Positions 37,945-50,557 of a stretch of DNA of 64,000 bases are shown here, piece after piece. The notes under the pieces were generated by a model. That model made no database searches and was not told the origin of the DNA. It saw nothing but the letters and a program-made list of their open reading frames with translations. Location: contig RDYL01000003.1 in assembly GCA_004293165.1 (NCBI GenBank), forward strand, positions 62,001 through 126,000. Direction: 5' to 3'. A program made the translations under genes and the position numbers. Positions within the stretch are counted from its first letter, which is position 1, and the number at the start of each line of letters is the position of its first letter. The stretch comes from Flavobacteriia bacterium. Lineage in GTDB: Bacteria > Bacteroidota > Bacteroidia > Flavobacteriales > Flavobacteriaceae.

Positions 37945-38388
37945 TTAGTTTTTATAATATTTAAAAGGAACTATTAACATTCCAAAGCATTCGCCGTGTT
38001 CTTTTCCAATATGTTTGTGATGCATTTTATGGGCTCTTCTAACTGCTCTAGCATATTTATTATCTGCATTTCTGAAGATTTTAAAACGTTGGTGTATAAA
38101 AATATCATGGACTAAAAAATAGGCAATTCCATAGGCTAAAATTCCTAAACCTATTGATATTCCTAATTCGAATGAACCAATACTCCACGTATAAAAACAA
38201 GTAATACTAACAATGGCATAAAAAATAAAAAAGGCATCATTTCTTTCAAACCAAGAATCATGATCTTTTTTATGGTGGTCTGCATGTAAACTCCATAAAA
38301 AGCCATGCATTACATACTTATGCGTAAACCAAGCCATAAATTCCATAATAAAAAAGGTGATAAAAAAAACTAAAACGTGAATCCACAT
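37945..38388 (-). CDS. crtZ: Beta-carotene hydroxylase
   Basis: 147 aa integral membrane di-iron hydroxylase that adds the 3 and 3' hydroxyls to beta-carotene to make zeaxanthin. The histidine clusters HKYVMH, HADHH, HDIFIHQRF and HKMHHKH give the family's iron ligands. Short size fits bacterial CrtZ. It is the last gene of the carotenoid operon, 79 bp after crtB. A lycopene cyclase (crtY or crtYcd), needed between phytoene desaturation and hydroxylation, is not in the visible cluster. Confidence 0.9.
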   Translation of the reverse strand: MWIHVLVFFITFFIMEFMAWFTHKYVMHGFLWSLHADHHKKDHDSWFERNDAFFIFYAIVSITCFYTWSIGSFELGISIGLGILAYGIAYFLVHDIFIHQRFKIFRNADNKYARAVRRAHKMHHKHIGKEHGECFGMLIVPFKYYKN

Positions 38389-38467: not shown

Positions 38468-39307
38468 TTAAATAATGTTTAATCTATATTTGACATAACA
38501 TCTTGCTAATAATTGTACTTTTTGATAATCAGAAACTCTTATTCTAGTATTTTTAATTTCAAGAGAAGGGGTTTTTTGAAGTTTTTTCAATAACTTTTTA
38601 TAATATCTATAAGCTGTATACACTCCAAATTTAGCTTCTAACGGAAGATTTTTTATTCCTTCGAATGCCGCTTCAAAATCACTTTCAATATCTGCAATTA
38701 TTTCTTGTTTTGATTTTTCGTCTAAATGATTCAAATCGGTATTAGGAAAATAAGTTCTACTTAAATCTTCAAAATCTGCTTTTAAATCTCTTAGGAAATT
38801 TACTTTTTGAAATGCAGAGCCTAAACGCATCGCTGAATCTTTTAGTTCATTGAATCTTGTTTCGTTTCCATTTACAAAAACTTTCAAACACATTAAACCC
38901 ACTACATCAGCAGAACCATAAATGTATTCTTGATATTCTTCTGTTGTTTTGTATTCGCTTTTGCTTAAATCTAATTTCATACTTTTCATAAAAGCATCAA
39001 TCATCTCTTGTGGAATATTGTATTTATTCACTGTGTGTTGAAATGAATTTAAAATAGGATTTAAACTTATTTTATGTGAAAGAGCATCTTTTAAATCTTC
39101 CTCAAATTTATCAAAAAGAAATGCTTTATCATAATCATGGAACGAATCTACAATTTCGTCTGCAAAACGAACAAAACCATAAATATTATAAATATCTTGT
39201 CTAATACTAGGCGCCAGCATTTTTACGGCACTCGAGAAAGAGGTACTATATGCTTTAGTAACTTTTACACTACAATCGTTAGATATTTTGTCAAATATTG
39301 CCTTCAT
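38468..39307 (-). CDS. crtB: Phytoene synthase
   Basis: 279 aa enzyme of the squalene/phytoene synthase family that condenses two geranylgeranyl diphosphates to phytoene. The two aspartate-rich metal motifs are present: VRFADEIVDS (about residue 50) and LRDLKADFEDLSRTYFP (about residue 175). Carotenoid context (crtI 3 bp upstream) favours CrtB over a squalene synthase. Confidence 0.93.
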   Translation of the reverse strand: MKAIFDKISNDCSVKVTKAYSTSFSSAVKMLAPSIRQDIYNIYGFVRFADEIVDSFHDYDKAFLFDKFEEDLKDALSHKISLNPILNSFQHTVNKYNIPQEMIDAFMKSMKLDLSKSEYKTTEEYQEYIYGSADVVGLMCLKVFVNGNETRFNELKDSAMRLGSAFQKVNFLRDLKADFEDLSRTYFPNTDLNHLDEKSKQEIIADIESDFEAAFEGIKNLPLEAKFGVYTAYRYYKKLLKKLQKTPSLEIKNTRIRVSDYQKVQLLARCYVKYRLNII

Positions 39308-39309
39308 GC

Positions 39310-40770
39310 TTATTGATATTTTTCTATTAAATCTGATACTAATTTTCCTGAGATTAAGGAAGGAGGTACTCCTGGTCCTGGTACAGTTAATTGACCAGTA
39401 AAATATAAGTTTTTTACTTTTTTACTTTTCAATTTAGGTCTTAAAAAAGCGGTTTGCAGTAAGGTATTTGCCATACCATACGCATTCCCTTTGTACGAAT
39501 TATAATCTTTTATAAAATCATTTACACAAAATGATTCTTTAAAGATAATATTATTTTTTACTTTTTGATCAGTTAATTGTTCAAGACGAGTAATTATTTT
39601 TTCAAAATACAATTCACGTAATTCGTTAGTATCTTCCAAACCAGGAGCTAAAGGGATTAAAAAGATACCTGCTTCTTTTCCTTCTGGAGCTGATGAAGCA
39701 TCTGTTTTAGAGGGAAAACTAGCATAAAAAAGCGGATTTTCAGGCCATTTTGGATGGTCATAAATTGCTTCGGCATGCACATCAAAATCCACATCAAAAA
39801 ATAAAGAATGATGTTCTACATTGTCAATTTTTTTGTCAAACCCCACATAAAATAATAGGGAAGAAGGAGCAAATGTTTTATTTTCCCAGTAATTTTCTGA
39901 ATACTGACGATAATTTTTTTCTAATAATGTTTCAGAATGATGATAATCGGCTCCACTTAATACAATATCCGCAGCAACTATTTTATTATTGACTAATATG
40001 CCAGTTGCTTTTCCATTGGTTACATCAATTTTTTCAACGTTAGCATTGGTTTCTATTTTGACACCCAATTCTCTTGCTAATGTTTCCATGGCTAATATTA
40101 CAGAATACATTCCGTTTTTTGGATGCCAAGTGCCTAAGCCAAAATCAGCATAATTCATGAAGTTATAAAATGATGGTGTGTCACTTGGTTTGGCTCCTAA
40201 AAACAAAACGGGAAATTCTAATATTTGAACCAATTTCATGTTTTTGAATCTTTTTCGAACATCTTTTTTAATGTTACTAAAAAATTGATTCACTTTTTTG
40301 GCTGTTTCTAGTGTGATTAATTCTAATGGAGATTCACCTGGACGATAAACTAAATCTTTAATAGCAATGTCATAATTACTTTTGGCTTCTGCCATAAATT
40401 GTTCTAATTGTTTACCACTTCCTTTTTCGATAGATTCAAAAGTGCTAACAATTTCAGATAAATTATCTGCAATCGTTACAAAATCTAAATGCCCAAAATA
40501 CACCTGATAAGCAGGAGATAATTTAATTAATTCATAATAATCAGACGGTTTTTTATTGAAATCAGCAAAGAATCGCTCAAAAACATCTGGCATCCAATAC
40601 CAAGTTGGGCCAATATCAAAAGTAAAGCCTTCTTTTTTAAGTTGACGTGCTCTTCCTCCTATGGTGCTATTTTTCTCATAGATTGTTACATCATTACCTT
40701 GTTTTGCTAAATAGCAAGCCGCAGCCAATGAAGAAAATCCAGAACCGATAATGACAATTTTTTTTTGCAC
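39310..40770 (-). CDS. crtI: Phytoene desaturase
   Basis: 487 aa FAD enzyme of the CrtI type, desaturating phytoene towards lycopene. The FAD-binding fold starts IVIIGSGFSSLAAACYLAKQG, with IGGRARQLKKEGFTFDIGPTWY after it, and the C-terminal NLYFTGQLTVPGPGVPPSL is the family tail. Starting at the upstream ATG (40815) would add 15 residues before the FAD motif and would lie within the promoter; GTG at 40770 (VQKKIVIIG) fits family N-termini and the promoter at 40791-40821. First of the crtI-crtB-crtZ biosynthetic genes, just after the regulator. Confidence 0.93.
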   Translation of the reverse strand: MQKKIVIIGSGFSSLAAACYLAKQGNDVTIYEKNSTIGGRARQLKKEGFTFDIGPTWYWMPDVFERFFADFNKKPSDYYELIKLSPAYQVYFGHLDFVTIADNLSEIVSTFESIEKGSGKQLEQFMAEAKSNYDIAIKDLVYRPGESPLELITLETAKKVNQFFSNIKKDVRKRFKNMKLVQILEFPVLFLGAKPSDTPSFYNFMNYADFGLGTWHPKNGMYSVILAMETLARELGVKIETNANVEKIDVTNGKATGILVNNKIVAADIVLSGADYHHSETLLEKNYRQYSENYWENKTFAPSSLLFYVGFDKKIDNVEHHSLFFDVDFDVHAEAIYDHPKWPENPLFYASFPSKTDASSAPEGKEAGIFLIPLAPGLEDTNELRELYFEKIITRLEQLTDQKVKNNIIFKESFCVNDFIKDYNSYKGNAYGMANTLLQTAFLRPKLKSKKVKNLYFTGQLTVPGPGVPPSLISGKLVSDLIEKYQ

Positions 40771-40780
40771 TTGCTGTTTA

Positions 40781-40821
40781 TTTTGTTTAACAAAAATAAT
40801 AAAAAAGTTAAACAAAACAAA
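40781..40821 (-). promoter_or_regulatory. crtI promoter with overlapping inverted repeat (candidate operator)
   Basis: On the minus strand TTTG (40821-40818), 19 nt, TATTTTTG (40798-40791), a full match to the Bacteroidota promoter. A perfect inverted repeat overlaps it: TTTTGTTTAAC at 40781-40791 and GTTAAACAAAA at 40807-40817, with 15 nt between. A protein bound there would block the polymerase. Related copies lie upstream of the merR gene. Confidence 0.65.
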
Positions 40822-40826
40822 ACTTT

Positions 40827-41726
40827 TTATAAAGTATTTGAAAGTTCTTCTATACTATTAAATATGTGAACGTTATTTGGTATTGTTTTAGATGAAATAA
40901 ACTGTGTCATTCTTCCTAATAAAAGGAGCTCGTGGTTCGTGTTTTCTAATAATTTAGAATACATGTCAGCTAGATATCCGTTTACTTCATCTTGATTAGG
41001 TTCAACAGTTAAATAGCTTACAAAAGTGATTTTTTCAAATGAATTTTTCAAGTCTACTAAACTGTCAGTAGGAATGCTTTCTCCTAGATAAATAGTTTGA
41101 TAACCGTTTAATAGAATTTCGTAGTTTAAATACATTAATCCTAGTTCGTGTATTTCGTTCAACGGAAGAAATAACACAAAAACTTTATCATTTTTAATAG
41201 GTTCTAGTATTTGAACTTTTTCGGTATTAATTAAAAGTTTTTGTTTGATAAGATAGGTGATAAAGTGCTCGTGAGCTGGAGTAATGGTTTCAGTTTGCCA
41301 TAAAAATCCTAATTCTTGCATTAAGGGTACAAAAACAGTGTAAAAGACTTCTCTAAATGATTTCTCGTTAAGTAATTGATTGTAAGTATTAAAAAATAAT
41401 GATTGATCAAAATTCATCATTGCCATTTTAAAAGTACTGATGGCGTGATTTTTTGCACTTTTTTCGGAAATAATATCGTTTGCTAACTTGTTAATTTGTT
41501 CTTGATTAAGCGTGCCAATTTTTGAGATTTTATACCCGTAATTATGAAGCAAGACAATGTTTAATAACTTTTGAAGATTTTTAATATCATAGGAACGAAT
41601 GTTGGTATCCGAGCGCATAGGTTCTAAAACATTATAGCGTTTTTCCCAAATACGAATCGTATGTGCTTTTATGCCAGAAAGATTTTCTAAATCTTTGATA
41701 CTGAAAACATTTTTAACATTGTTCAT
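40827..41726 (-). CDS. MerR-family regulator with B12-binding domain, CarH/LitR-like
   Basis: 299 aa. The N-terminal MerR helix-turn-helix is at 7-75 (FSIKDLENLSGIKAHTIRIWEKRY). Then a four-helix cobalamin-associated region (about 95-165) and a B12-binding Rossmann fold (about 180-299). Trp143, then nine residues, then Glu153-His154 is the W-x9-EH motif of AdoCbl-binding photoreceptors. ExHxxG (Glu191, His193, Gly196) matches the B12 cobalt-ligand motif DxHxxG. It is upstream of crtI in the same direction. CarH represses carotenoid genes in the dark; here the same role is inferred. Confidence 0.85.
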   Translation of the reverse strand: MNNVKNVFSIKDLENLSGIKAHTIRIWEKRYNVLEPMRSDTNIRSYDIKNLQKLLNIVLLHNYGYKISKIGTLNQEQINKLANDIISEKSAKNHAISTFKMAMMNFDQSLFFNTYNQLLNEKSFREVFYTVFVPLMQELGFLWQTETITPAHEHFITYLIKQKLLINTEKVQILEPIKNDKVFVLFLPLNEIHELGLMYLNYEILLNGYQTIYLGESIPTDSLVDLKNSFEKITFVSYLTVEPNQDEVNGYLADMYSKLLENTNHELLLLGRMTQFISSKTIPNNVHIFNSIEELSNTL

Positions 41727-41737
41727 CTTTTACTTTA

Positions 41738-41826
41738 TTTTGTTCAACAAAAGTAACAAAAAAAGTAAACAAAAACATTTTTAGAATGAAAAATGTTTAC
41801 TCAATATTAAAATAAGTTAAACAAAG
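41738..41826 (-). promoter_or_regulatory. Repeated TTTTGTTTAAC-like sites upstream of the MerR gene
   Basis: TTTTGTTCAAC at 41738-41748 (one mismatch to the crtI arm, and itself part of a near-palindrome TTTTGTTCAACAAAA), a GTAAACAAAA at 41765-41774 and GTTAAACAAAG at 41816-41826. A TACTTTTG box (41755-41748) could be the -7. Suggests autoregulation by the same regulator. Confidence 0.5.
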
Positions 41827-41986: not shown

Positions 41987-41995
41987 AGATTATTG

Positions 41996-42068
41996 TGACC
42001 TGGCTGGGGCTCGAACCCAGGACCCCATCATTAAAAGTGATGTGCTCTACCAACTGAGCTACCAAGTC
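41996..42068 (-). tRNA. tRNA-Lys(TTT)
   Basis: 73 nt on the minus strand. Acceptor GACTTGG/CCAGGTC with one T.G pair, anticodon loop CTTTTAA giving TTT, T arm CTGGGTTCGAGCCCCAG. Identical in sequence to the copy at 42099. Confidence 0.95.
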
Positions 42069-42098
42069 GTAGCTTTCAAGAAAATAGTGTTTTTTTTG

Positions 42099-42171
42099 TG
42101 ACCTGGCTGGGGCTCGAACCCAGGACCCCATCATTAAAAGTGATGTGCTCTACCAACTGAGCTACCAAGTC
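42099..42171 (-). tRNA. tRNA-Lys(TTT), second copy
   Basis: Identical over 73 nt to the copy at 41996-42068, 30 bp away, so a tandem duplication. First gene of the leftward tRNA cluster, 25 bp after a TATATTTG box. Confidence 0.95.
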
Positions 42172-46428: not shown

Positions 46429-49400
46429 ATGGAACTACAAACTCCTTATATTCCTAAAAATAAAGTAAGAATTGTGACCGCAGCGTCACTTTTTGATGGA
46501 CACGATGCAGCCATTAATATCATGCGTAGAATTATTCAAGCTACGGGTGTTGAGGTTATTCACCTTGGACATGATAGAAGTGTGGAAGAAGTTGTAAATA
46601 CAGCTATTCAAGAAGATGCGAATGCGATTGCAATGACATCTTACCAAGGAGGTCATAACGAATATTTCAAATACATGTATGATTTGCTTAAAGAAAAAGG
46701 AGCAGGTCACATCAAAATATTTGGTGGAGGTGGAGGTGTTATCTTACCTTCTGAAATTTCAGAATTACACGAATACGGTATCGAAAGAATTTATTCGCCA
46801 GATGACGGTCGTGCCATGGGATTACAAGGTATGATAAACGATTTAGTGCAACGTTCGGATTATCCAATTGGAGATAAATTAACGGGAGAATTATCGCATA
46901 TCGAAGATAAAAATCCAACTGCAATTGCACGATTAATTTCTGCAGCTGAGAATTTTCCAGAAATTGCAAAATCAGTTTTTGACCAAATTCACCAAAAGAA
47001 TGAAACGTCAAAAATCCCAGTTTTAGGAATCACAGGAACGGGTGGTGCCGGAAAATCATCGTTAGTAGATGAATTAGTACGTCGTTTTTTAATCGATTTC
47101 CCTGAAAAAACTATTGGATTAATTTCGGTTGACCCATCAAAACGTAAAACGGGAGGTGCTTTGTTAGGCGATAGAATTCGTATGAATGCGATTAATAATT
47201 CTCGTGTTTATATGCGTTCGTTGGCTACACGTCAATCTAATTTGGCTTTATCAAAATATGTGGCTGAAGCAATTGAAGTGTTGAAAGCTGCTAAATATGA
47301 CATCATTATTTTAGAAACATCTGGAATTGGACAATCGGATACCGAAATTTTAGAACATTCTGATGTTTCATTATACGTAATGACACCAGAATTTGGAGCA
47401 GCAACACAATTAGAAAAAATCGATATGTTAGATTTTGCTGATTTAGTTGCTTTGAATAAATTTGACAAACGTGGTGCTTTAGATGCCATTCGTGATGTAA
47501 AAAAACAATACCAACGCAATCATAATTTATGGGATGTAGATACTGATAAAATGCCAATTTTTGGGACAATCGCCTCGCAATTCAACGACCCAGGAATGAA
47601 CACGTTGTACAAATCTATCATGGATAAGATTGTAGCCAAAACAGGAGCTGATTTAAAATCGACTTTTGAAATTACACGTGAAATGAGCGAGAAAATTTTC
47701 GTAATTCCGCCTCACAGAACACGTTATTTATCTGAAATTGCAGAAAACAATAGAAAATACGACGAAACAGCACTTTCGCAAGTAGAAGTAGCTCAAAAAT
47801 TATACGGAATTTGCAAAACTATAGAAACCGTTAACGGAAATGTTCCACAAATAGATAAAGCAGGAATTGTTGAAAGTTCTTTGAACATTACTGCTGATAA
47901 CAAAGATTTTGTTTCGTTATTGACTAAAGAATTCGACCGTGTAAAAATGAATTTGGACCCATACAACTGGGAAATCATTTTAACTTGGGACGAAAAAGTA
48001 AACAAATACAAAAATCCTGTTTATAGTTTTAAAGTTCGTGATAAAGAAATCAAAATTGCAACGCATACTGAATCGTTATCACATTCTCAAATTCCAAAAG
48101 TTTCTTTGCCAAAATACCAAGCTTGGGGAGATATATTAAAATGGAATTTACAAGAAAATGTTCCAGGTGAATTCCCATTCGCATCAGGATTATATCCGTT
48201 CAAACGCGAAGGTGAAGATCCAAGTAGAATGTTTGCAGGAGAAGGAGGACCAGAACGTACCAACAAACGTTTCCATTATGTTTCTGCGGGATTACCAGCA
48301 AAACGTTTATCAACCGCTTTTGACTCGGTAACTTTATATGGAAATGATCCACATATTCGTCCTGATATTTATGGAAAAATTGGAAATGCAGGAGTTTCAA
48401 TTTGTTGCTTAGATGATGCGAAGAAATTATATTCAGGTTTCGATTTAAGTCATCCATTAACTTCCGTTTCGATGACAATTAATGGTCCAGCACCAATGTT
48501 GTTAGGATTCTTCATGAATGCTGCTATCGATCAAAACTGTGAGAAATATGTCATTGAAAACGGTTTACAAGATGAAGTTGAAGCTAAAATCAACGAAATC
48601 TACAAGAAAAAAGGAGTAGAGCGTCCAAGATATCAAGGAACTTTACCAGAAGGAAATAATGGCTTAGGTTTAATGCTTTTAGGAGTTACAGGTGACCAAG
48701 TTTTACCTTTTGATGTATATCAAGATATTAAAATTAAAACGTTAGCACAAGTTCGTGGAACAGTTCAAGCTGATATTTTAAAAGAAGATCAAGCACAAAA
48801 TACTTGTATTTTCTCTACGGAATTTGCATTGCGTTTGATGGGTGACGTTCAAGAATATTTCATTAAGCAAAACGTTCGTAATTTCTATTCCGTTTCGATT
48901 TCGGGATATCATATTGCTGAAGCAGGAGCGAATCCTATTACACAATTAGCTTTCACGTTAGCAAATGGTTTCACTTATGTAGAATATTATTTAAGTCGTG
49001 GAATGAACATCAACGATTTCGGTCCGAACTTATCATTTTTCTTCTCAAACGGAATTGATCCAGAATATGCGGTAATCGGTCGTGTAGCACGTAAAATTTG
49101 GGCGAAAGCCTTGAAAAATAAATACGGAGCCAACGAAAGAGCACAAATGTTGAAATACCACATTCAAACTTCGGGACGTTCGTTACACGCACAAGAGATT
49201 GATTTTAATGATATTCGTACGACTTTACAAGCTTTATATGCGATTTACGACAACTGTAACTCGTTGCATACGAATGCTTACGACGAAGCGATTACGACTC
49301 CAACTGAAGAATCAGTGCGTAGAGCAATGGCAATTCAGTTGATTATTAATAAAGAATTAGGTTTAGCGAAAAATGAAAACCCAATTCAAGGTTCGTTCAT

Positions 49401-49854
49401 AATTGAAGAATTAACCGATTTAGTAGAAGATGCTGTTTTACAAGAATTTGACAGAATCACAGAACGTGGAGGAGTTCTTGGCGCAATGGAAACCATGTAC
49501 CAACGTTCAAAAATTCAAGAAGAATCATTGTATTACGAAACCTTGAAACACACAGGAGAATTCCCAATTATTGGTGTAAATACCTTCTTGAGTTCTAAAG
49601 GTTCGCCAACAGTTATTCCAGCTGAGGTTATTCGTGCAACGGAGGAAGAAAAACAATATCAAATCGATATGTTAACCGATTTGCATAAAACAAGTGCAGA
49701 AAAAGTAGCCGAGCACATTAATATTTTACAAGAAGCAGCGATTAAGAACCAAAACATTTTCGAAAAATTAATGGATGCAACTAAGGTTTGTTCGTTAGGG
49801 CAAATCACCAATGCGTTATTCGAGGTTGGTGGTCAGTATCGACGCAATATGTAA
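46429..49854 (+). CDS. icmF: Fused isobutyryl-CoA mutase (IcmF)
   Basis: 1141 aa. Order: B12-binding domain (cobalt-ligand motif DGHDAA, residues 23-28), G3E-type GTPase chaperone of the MeaB kind (Walker [15 protein letters not shown] about 200; LNKFDKRG-type specificity loop about 345), then the mutase TIM barrel, with [26 protein letters not shown] and [12 protein letters not shown]. Fusing GTPase and mutase is the hallmark of IcmF, which interconverts isobutyryl-CoA and n-butyryl-CoA using adenosylcobalamin. A palindrome and T run follow, which may end transcription. Confidence 0.94.
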
Positions 49855-49877: not shown

Positions 49878-49902
49878 AGAGACAAGGCAATGCCTTGTCT
49901 CT
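49878..49902. repeat. REP-like palindrome, probably also the icmF terminator
   Basis: Perfect 12-bp arms AGAGACAAGGCA/TGCCTTGTCTCT around one A, followed by a run of T (49902-49909). The same palindrome, with T in the centre, is inside the RAYT gene at 50284. Confidence 0.85.
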
Positions 49903-49990
49903 TTTTTTTGAATCCATTCAAAAAAAATCAAAATCATTTTCAATTCCCAAAATAATTTCATTATTTCGTAATATTATAACATTCAACGCC

Positions 49991-50557
49991 ATGCAAAATA
50001 AATTTCAAAACAAATACCGCATTCCTTCCGCACGTCTACAAACCTGGGATTATGCCAACAATGGTGCCTATTTTATTACCATTTGCACCCAAAATCGAGA
50101 ACATTTTTTTGGAAATATTAAAAACGGAATTATGCAATTATCCGAAATCGGGAAATTGGCAGCACAATTTTGGTATGAAATACCCAATCATTTTTCAATG
50201 ATTGAATTGGGTAATTTTGTGGTGATGCCAAATCATGTTCATGGGATATTGATTATTGACAAAACGAATGATGAACCATTCGTAGAGACAAGGCATTGCC
50301 TTGTCTCTAACATCGAAACCAATTCAATTATTGGTTCATCCCGATTTCAAAATCAGGAAAAAAATACCATTTCATCAATCGTAGGTTCATATAAATCCAT
50401 AGTCACCAAAATGTCACGACAAATCAACCCCAATTTCGGGTGGCAATCCCGATTTCACGATCATATCATTCGTAATTCGGAATCATTTGAAAAAATTCAA
50501 CATTATATTGAACAAAATCCATCAAAATGGAAAGAAGATACATTTTATAAATTATGA
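49991..50557 (+). CDS. REP-associated tyrosine transposase (RAYT)
   Basis: 188 aa single-strand transposase of the Y1/TnpA_REP group. It begins MQNKFQNKYRIPSARLQTWD and has TICTQNREHFFG, then the HuH histidines in VVMPNHVHGIL and the catalytic tyrosine in the final HDHIIRNSESFEKIQHYIE (Tyr after the helix). An upstream in-frame ATG (49895) reads through the palindrome and has atypical sequence, so it was not used. Domesticated RAYTs act on the REP palindromes around them; the same palindrome is found just upstream and within this gene. Confidence 0.88.
   Translation: MQNKFQNKYRIPSARLQTWDYANNGAYFITICTQNREHFFGNIKNGIMQLSEIGKLAAQFWYEIPNHFSMIELGNFVVMPNHVHGILIIDKTNDEPFVETRHCLVSNIETNSIIGSSRFQNQEKNTISSIVGSYKSIVTKMSRQINPNFGWQSRFHDHIIRNSESFEKIQHYIEQNPSKWKEDTFYKL
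50284..50308. repeat. REP-like palindrome inside the RAYT coding region
   Basis: Arms AGAGACAAGGCA/TGCCTTGTCTCT identical to the copy at 49878, one centre base differing. It is in frame and adds residues VETRHCLVS to the transposase. Confidence 0.85.

Follow-up and report, generated by a model that had tools for sequence, protein, structure and literature searches.

A CarH/LitR-like MerR regulator and its predicted operator at the carotenoid operon of Flavobacterium

Introduction

CarH homologues are spread over several phyla (PMC9304148), and CarH-type photoreceptors have, as far as the papers cited here describe them, been worked out in Thermus, Bacillus, myxobacteria and Chloracidobacterium. 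The group is defined in PMC8156234 by the motifs Wx9EH and ExHx2Gx41SxV/Tx22-27GG, and the DNA motif contacted by CarH is given as nnnnTnnACAn in PMC9304148. A search limited to a collection of open-access papers returned no characterised B12 photoreceptor from Bacteroidota. Here, we describe a regulator gene (merR) and its putative operator sites in a 64,000-nucleotide (nt) stretch of DNA, referred to as the window (GenBank contig RDYL01000003.1, 62001-126000), from a 2.57-Mb Flavobacterium-type genome. The gene encodes a MerR-family protein with a vitamin B12-binding domain and stands directly upstream of the phytoene desaturase gene crtI.

A first-pass annotation had read this arrangement as a candidate light- and B12-responsive switch on the carotenoid operon, and it was right about the sequence and very probably about the function too. 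With a probability of roughly 0.7, we regard the protein as a MerR repressor of CarH/LitR-like type that binds cobalamin and governs a light-protection regulon, being loaded with adenosylcobalamin (AdoCbl) in the dark and released by light. From the sequence we infer that it binds the sites described below, that AdoCbl is its cofactor and light its signal, and that the effect is repression. The new elements are the operator and the regulon predicted for Flavobacterium.

Results

The principal features of the locus, in window positions, are as follows.

40827..41726, minus strand: MerR-family regulator with a C-terminal B12-binding domain, CarH/LitR-like (299 aa; Pfam, structure model)
39310..40770, minus strand: crtI, phytoene desaturase (NCBIfam CrtID, 745.7 bits, cut-off 640)
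40791..40798, minus strand: -7 promoter element TATTTTTG of crtI, overlapped by dyad 1 (TA here in 95 of 98 crtI sites)
40818..40821, minus strand: -33 promoter element TTTG of crtI (from the sequence; 19 nt from the -7 element)
40784..40815, minus strand: predicted operator dyad 1 at crtI, TTGTTTAA-N13-TTTGTTAAACA (0 mismatches; kept in relatives)
40781..40795, no strand: 15-bp palindrome TTTTGTT-W-AACAAAA, the promoter-proximal half of dyad 1 (from the sequence)
41741..41772, minus strand: predicted operator dyad 2 at the merR promoter (2 mismatches; over the -7 element TACTTTTG; in close relatives)
41794..41824, minus strand: possible operator dyad 3 upstream of merR (3 mismatches, weak; alike in several closest relatives only)

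A cobalamin-photoreceptor-type regulator ahead of crtI

The regulator matches the Pfam domains MerR_1 (1.2e-12) and B12-binding_2 (8.7e-08). Its nearest solved relatives by sequence are Thermus thermophilus LitR/CarH (E 1.2e-9 and 1.5e-9), matched at about 2e-12 with a 45-member profile. An AlphaFold model (mean predicted local distance difference test 86.7, predicted template modelling score 0.75) gave CarH as its best Foldseek match (E 1e-13). Residues 90-299 aligned with the CarH B12 domain at Z 20.4 and a root-mean-square deviation of 2.4 A over 195 residues with 17% identity, a row that belongs to the H132A variant of T. thermophilus CarH (TtCarH), the wild-type rows scoring 20.2 and 20.1. 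Lower structural matches of this domain were photocobilin (19.8), CtMerR (18.8) and methionine synthase (16.5). Pfam and the model together recover the domain set of class I CarH/LitR proteins, namely a MerR winged-helix domain, a four-helix bundle and a Rossmann domain.

The first-pass annotation had singled out W143-x9-E153-H154 and an ExHxxG motif around H193 as cobalamin-binding signatures, and both are present. W143, E153, H154, E191 and the lower-ligand residue H193 are invariant in all 176 distinct relatives, drawn from 200 loci with one homologue lacking the B12 domain (L002) left out; G196 is kept in 174 of them. In more distant Bacteroidota loci, Wx9EH was found in 21 of 22 and [DE]xHxxG in 13 of 22 by a plain pattern search in which some frames may be shortened. 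The modelled fold and the adenosyl-capping residues make this a domain of the cobalamin-photoreceptor type, a shared fold not in itself implying a shared function. Immediately downstream of the gene comes crtI in 169 of 176 distinct loci (193 of 200 before duplicate removal), and homologues occur in 131 of 150 Flavobacterium genomes (E 1e-20) and in 220 of 249 sampled Flavobacteriaceae genomes (E 1e-15).

An inverted dyad over the crtI and merR promoters

The crtI promoter that had been proposed, TTTG followed by 19 nt and TATTTTTG, lies on the minus strand as described, its -7 element having been placed with what we take to be the Flavobacterium promoter consensus. The perfect arms said to overlap it are likewise there: TTTTGTTTAAC (40781-40791) and GTTAAACAAAA (40807-40817) are complementary over 11 nt and 15 nt apart. 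The crtI coding strand reads TTTTGTTTAAC-N15-GTTAAACAAAA, with the second arm covering TATTTTTG, and a longer pair of repeats around the arms matches at 93%. Similar sites had also been claimed upstream of the regulator's own gene, where we find a repeat of the 41-nt stretch 40777-40817 at 41734-41774 with 88% identity, the two-mismatch dyad 2 and the weak dyad 3. Four more three-mismatch dyads occur in the window, at 40783 and 41719 (other strand, within the locus), 8771 (plus) and 23973 (minus). Among 20 dinucleotide-shuffled windows, none held a dyad with zero or one mismatch, and copies with two and three mismatches arose 0.1 and 0.8 times per window, so dyad 3 is treated as weak. A chance origin of the arms was rejected on the evidence of the shuffled windows and of conservation in relatives. 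A reading of the arms as just a promoter element was also rejected, because TAnnTTTG is a general promoter pattern and TANNTTTGTTNAACAAA is rare, with only three perfect matches in the window genome (the crtI, merR and msrA-folE promoters).

Each half-site can be compared with the CarH contact motif. TTGTTAAACAA fits nnnnTnnACAn on both strands, and the distal half (AAGTTAAACAA in the window) fits it on the opposite strand; the fit was judged by inspection and is weak alone, as the motif has only four fixed bases and the halves are inverted rather than arranged as tandem direct repeats. The arrangement can be described either as inverted half-sites about 24 bp apart or, at a distance of 21-22 bp (two helical turns), as direct repeats of TGTnnA. 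Sequence and conservation together place a predicted operator on the carotenoid promoter, as in class I CarH/LitR systems.

For the conservation test, TTGTTTAA-N-TTTGTTAAACA was searched with the spacing left free between 10 and 17 in 139 of the 147 Flavobacterium loci and in 28 of the 29 from elsewhere; the loci left out had either no crtI at 0-140 nt downstream or less than 130 nt of upstream sequence. The suggestion that the arms should recur upstream of crtI in relatives is borne out: 112 of the 139 Flavobacterium loci carry the dyad with at most three mismatches at crtI and/or merR, versus 4.2% of 2,780 shuffled pairs, and 103 carry it with at most two, versus 0.5% of shuffles. The spacing is N12 or N13 in 96 of 98 crtI sites, and 14 loci without a crtI site bear the dyad at the merR promoter. 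The promoter-proximal half ends 1-4 nt before the crtI start in 64 of the 98 sites and 13 nt before it in the window. Since the site ends so close to the start codon, crtI mRNA would be leaderless, or nearly so, in those 64 loci. In G115, another genome of this species, the promoter-proximal half of the crtI dyad is intact and the distal half carries a single mismatch.

Conservation of the crtI dyad across other Flavobacteriaceae genera was considered and rejected, the dyad being present in 8 of 28 loci. In many of these loci the merR-crtI gap is short and only TAnnTTTGTTTAAC remains at the merR promoter; a block reading TTTAACG lies farther upstream, and the whole may be a different operator layout.

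Predicted targets beyond carotenoid synthesis

In the window genome, TTTGTTNAACAAA occurs at six places, compared with two for the reversed control. Ahead of the msrA-folE operon (177165-177848 of the same contig), a perfect half-site lies 17 nt from where msrA starts. The genome's three photolyase-family genes lie in two operons, SRPBCC-like-SDR-photolyase-photolyase and flavin reductase-cryptochrome, and both begin with a one-mismatch dyad of exact N12 spacing. Other candidates were set aside. Two exact TTTGTTNAACAAA copies (L201 and L202) lie inside coding frames, as do five one-mismatch half-sites (L216, L218, L219, L225 and L226). L206, upstream of what we take to be a ruvX-like gene, has no proper -7 element; L220, which precedes a presumed sugar-phosphate-mutase-like gene, was not counted, nor was L224, which lies ahead of a BtuF-like gene yet in the opposite orientation.

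Across 150 Flavobacterium genomes, the exact dyad was found at 129 places in 90 genomes, versus four for the reversed pattern; these site counts include close relatives and carry no correction for kinship. Sixty-five of the dyads are at merR-crtI, and the other 64 were all retrieved. Because the exact pattern fixes the bases, base conservation within the 64 sites arises by construction, and only spacing, place and downstream genes count as evidence. The spacing is N12 in 58 and N13 in 6, and 57 lie within 200 nt of a gene start. Fifty-eight head one of seven kinds of gene: folE (21), msrA (6, all with folE), a fasciclin-domain gene (11), SDR (2), SRPBCC-like (7, each followed by SDR and/or photolyase), flavin reductase (5, with photolyase/cryptochrome next in three) and TetR_C_23 (6, with ABC1 in the five loci that are long enough). 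The SRPBCC-like label is our assumption, as no Pfam domain matched. The remaining six sites (L295, L325, L334, L339, L344 and L345) precede other genes or none.

The folE gene received separate attention. The msrA loci of Flavobacterium that scored highest were compared, with the window genome among them (the best 30 of more than 100 matches from 81 genomes, not an even sample); the site is present in all seven in which folE follows msrA. Housekeeping folE was rejected as a target. When the best folE match was taken from each of 30 genomes, all 28 common folE genes (56-62% identical; 15 from genomes with merR and 13 from genomes without) had no half-site in the 200 nt upstream. Of these 30 matches, only one, of the 81-82% identical type, is directly preceded by the dyad; another (95% identical) belongs to an msrA-folE operon with the site ahead of msrA. 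The site-bearing folE is an additional copy of the gene.

A diverged extra folE (37-41% identical) also lies about 6-7 kb from merR in five genomes (G017, G010, G007, G002 and G019), besides the common folE, and merR-lacking G043 has one as well; a second folE seems tied to the merR region. The proteins encoded after the eleven fasciclin-type dyads carry the fasciclin domain and are lipoprotein-like, and at the six TetR_C_23 loci the dyad-bearing gene is mostly followed by an ABC1 kinase-like gene. In G017, the TetR_C_23 locus lies about 10 kb from merR.

The predicted sites bring together photolyase, cryptochrome, folE and SDR genes under one type of site, as in the LitR light regulon. Because only DNA sites were used to find the Flavobacterium set, this likeness constitutes independent support.

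Gene neighbourhood and cofactor supply

Two further genes follow crtI on the same strand.

38468..39307, minus strand: crtB, phytoene synthase (Pfam SQS_PSY, 6.3e-47)
37945..38388, minus strand: CrtZ-like gene (from its position and His-rich motifs; no Pfam or NCBIfam match at E<=0.01)

The product of the latter is probably a beta-carotene hydroxylase. The crtI start is most likely the GTG at 40770, which is also the start in the closest relatives; the closest named relative at the locus is F. lacisediminis (94% protein identity). Three tRNA genes lie upstream of merR, two of them near-identical tandem copies of tRNA-Lys(ttt) (41995-42068 and 42098-42171) just upstream of the merR promoter. 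The open reading frame at 49895-50557, without a Pfam match at 1e-5, has motifs that we take to resemble those of a REP-associated (Y1-type) transposase.

A second merR homologue was sought in the window genome, and only L002 was returned, its match limited to the DNA-binding domain. At E 1e-8 the regulator was absent from each of six genomes sampled from another family within the order, although light-induced carotenoids are reported for a Chryseobacterium; that family may possess a different light regulator.

With regard to the cofactor, the window genome contains one cobalamin riboswitch scoring over its cut-off (101.8 bits), with what we take to be a TonB-receptor-like gene downstream and a BtuF-like gene nearby. 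It also encodes a cobalamin adenosyltransferase (PF01923), and the window itself holds a mutase with MeaB and B12 domains (46429-49854).

Discussion

If the regulator works like CarH, AdoCbl would be held in the dark between the four-helix bundle, where W143, E153 and H154 would cap the adenosyl group, and the Rossmann domain, where H193 would serve as the lower ligand. The AdoCbl-bound protein would oligomerise and bind dyads of the form TTGTTTAA-N12/13-TTTGTTAAACA. Their promoter-proximal half would lie over the -7 element and start region of crtI, merR, the photolyase/cryptochrome operons and msrA-folE, and because of this position the bound oligomer would shut out RNA polymerase. Blue or green light would then cleave the Co-C bond and loosen the oligomer, jointly switching on carotenoid synthesis, DNA photorepair, pterin/folate supply and methionine-sulfoxide repair. 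The merR gene would be autoregulated. Because the residue that serves as upper ligand in the bis-His light state of TtCarH, His132, corresponds to Gln144 here, the light state would have to be stabilised in another way.

Several observations weigh against this reading, beginning with the protein itself. The NCBIfam CarH equivalog NF052513 gives 60.7 bits for a cut-off of 400. The His132 place is Gln in 171 of the 176 relatives and His in one. The SxV/T...GG part of the CarH motif is degenerate (x40, S-Y-L, x31, G271-R272), with S237 kept in 126 of 176 relatives and the second Gly replaced by Arg in 131. TtCarH H132A stays mostly tetrameric in the light according to PMC10442372, a source that also mentions an earlier report in which its disassembly was seen. 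Among the SignatureFinder motifs described in PMC11796333, GxxW (at 140), EH (at 153) and GxxxP (at 215) are present, and GxxH is absent from the regulator, which has N190-E-I-H193 instead. Because the motif, the NCBIfam score and the His132 place depart from CarH, the regulator is filed as CarH-like; judged by its sequence, it is not a CarH in the strict sense.

His132 is, however, not common to all light-responsive relatives. The photocobilin SasPcob has Gln at this place and CtMerR has Arg, yet light drives CtMerR from tetramer to monomer, as stated in PMC11796333. In 21 distant Bacteroidota loci with Wx9EH the place is taken by Q, L, S, V, M, T, K or R; a Thermus plasmid homologue has H there. 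The departures lower the likelihood that the protein is a CarH and leave unlowered the likelihood that it works like one.

The same departures underlie the best of the competing explanations, in which the regulator controls the same dyad regulon and responds to oxidative or singlet-oxygen stress, to B12 status or to light relayed by a partner. Besides Gln144 and the degenerate tail motif, precedents speak for it: class II LitR acts via a short LOV protein partner (PMC9758184), and Myxococcus xanthus CarA is B12-independent (PMC8156234). Against it, class II LitR is described in the former source as being without the second B12 domain and CarA in the latter as being without Wx9EH, whereas H193, W143, E153 and H154 are invariant in all 176 relatives of the regulator. 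The light response of CtMerR, with Arg at the His132 place, further counts against a signal other than photolysis, and we consider such a signal unlikely.

The sites provide further contrary evidence. Within three mismatches, no dyad is present at crtI or merR in 27 of the 139 Flavobacterium loci or in 20 of the 28 loci of other Flavobacteriaceae genera, and the exact dyad is absent from 60 of the 150 Flavobacterium genomes. The site is missing from 23 of the 30 best-scoring msrA loci, none of which has folE next. In the window genome, TANNTTTGTTNAACAAA with one mismatch is not enriched (15 places, 21 for the reversed control), so lone one-mismatch half-sites mean nothing. Co-occurrence of regulator and sites is only modestly significant, the p values ignoring kinship: among 124 near-complete genomes, non-crt sites occur in 39 of 110 with merR versus 1 of 14 without (p = 0.026), and among all 150 genomes in 50 of 131 versus 3 of the 19 in which merR is absent at E 1e-20 (p = 0.045). 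Removal of four genomes that have only sites at unlisted genes gives 37 of 110 versus 1 of 14 (p = 0.035) and 47 of 131 versus 2 of 19 (p = 0.021), respectively.

These figures bear on a second alternative, that the dyads belong to another factor, such as the TetR_C_23 protein, and that the MerR protein acts elsewhere. TetR_C_23 genes bear the dyad in 6 of the 64 non-crt loci, 27 of the 139 merR-crtI loci have no dyad within three mismatches, and three merR-lacking genomes bear one: G003 (89% complete, two sites, no listed gene), G104 (68% complete, flavin reductase) and G147 (90% complete, TetR gene). Against it, the sites are concentrated at the merR and crtI promoters, including merR in the 14 loci without a crtI site; they fit the CarH half-site motif; and 13 of the 14 near-complete merR-lacking genomes have no non-crt dyad. 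We judge this alternative improbable. Although the 19-nt spacer between the -33 and -7 elements recalls MerR-type activated promoters, a classical activator, seated on the 19-bp spacer and inducing crtI through promoter untwisting, is highly improbable, since the conserved promoter-proximal half lies on the -7 element and, in 64 of 98 sites, stops 1-4 nt short of the crtI start, a position that favours repression by blocking, and the characterised CarH/LitR proteins are repressors as far as the cited papers describe them.

The reading of the regulator as a light-released, AdoCbl-dependent repressor can be extended beyond the window. On balance, and with less assurance than for the locus itself, it appears that most Flavobacteriaceae possess a distinct branch of B12 photoreceptors without bis-His ligation. 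In Flavobacterium, this branch would control a photoprotection regulon through an inverted dyad of fixed geometry on the -7 element, placing pigmentation and DNA repair under the joint control of B12 and light. The regulon would comprise carotenoid synthesis, the photolyase/cryptochrome operons, a dedicated second folE, msrA and fasciclin lipoproteins. Flavobacteriaceae are among the commonest groups of heterotrophs in lit waters, and this very widespread family now has a concrete candidate operator and a predicted regulon, from which a few genes can be put to the test. The family-wide Gln at the His132 place makes DNA release by a B12 photoreceptor without bis-His ligation directly testable.

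Comparison with known systems

T. thermophilus CarH (PDB 5c8d, 5c8e and 3whp) shares with the present regulator the domain set, Wx9EH, ExHxxG and an operator, here a predicted one, over the promoter. It differs in its operator, which consists of three tandem 11-bp direct repeats rather than inverted half-sites about 24 bp apart, and in having His132 and an intact SxV/T...GG part, in contrast to Gln and a degenerate sequence here. CtMerR of Chloracidobacterium thermophilum (PDB 8jbs and 8jbt) is likewise a MerR protein with a B12 domain and without His at the 132 place, and it is reported as light-responsive in PMC11796333; it has Arg where the present regulator has Gln, and GxxH where the present regulator has NxxH.

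The class II LitR proteins of Pseudomonas (PplR and PmlR2) resemble the predicted system in their targets and sites. As described in PMC9758184, their regulon includes the photolyase PhrB, the cryptochrome CryB, FolE and SDR, and their sites are paired half-sites such as TGTACA-N12-GGTATA. Unlike the present regulator, they are described there as being without the second B12-binding domain, and PmlR2 takes its light signal from a LOV protein.

CarH and CarA of M. xanthus and CarH of Cystobacter are repressors of a crt operon, as is proposed for the present regulator, and PMC9304148 describes inverted repeats in the CarA operator and plasticity among CarH operators; their promoters differ in having TTGACA-type -35 elements, and their CarH operators are 11-bp direct repeats. 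Among flavobacteria in the wide sense, Chryseobacterium lacus shows light-induced crtI and crtB, as reported in PMC7064467, whose authors state that they find no car or lit operon genes in its genome, unlike the Flavobacterium locus described here.

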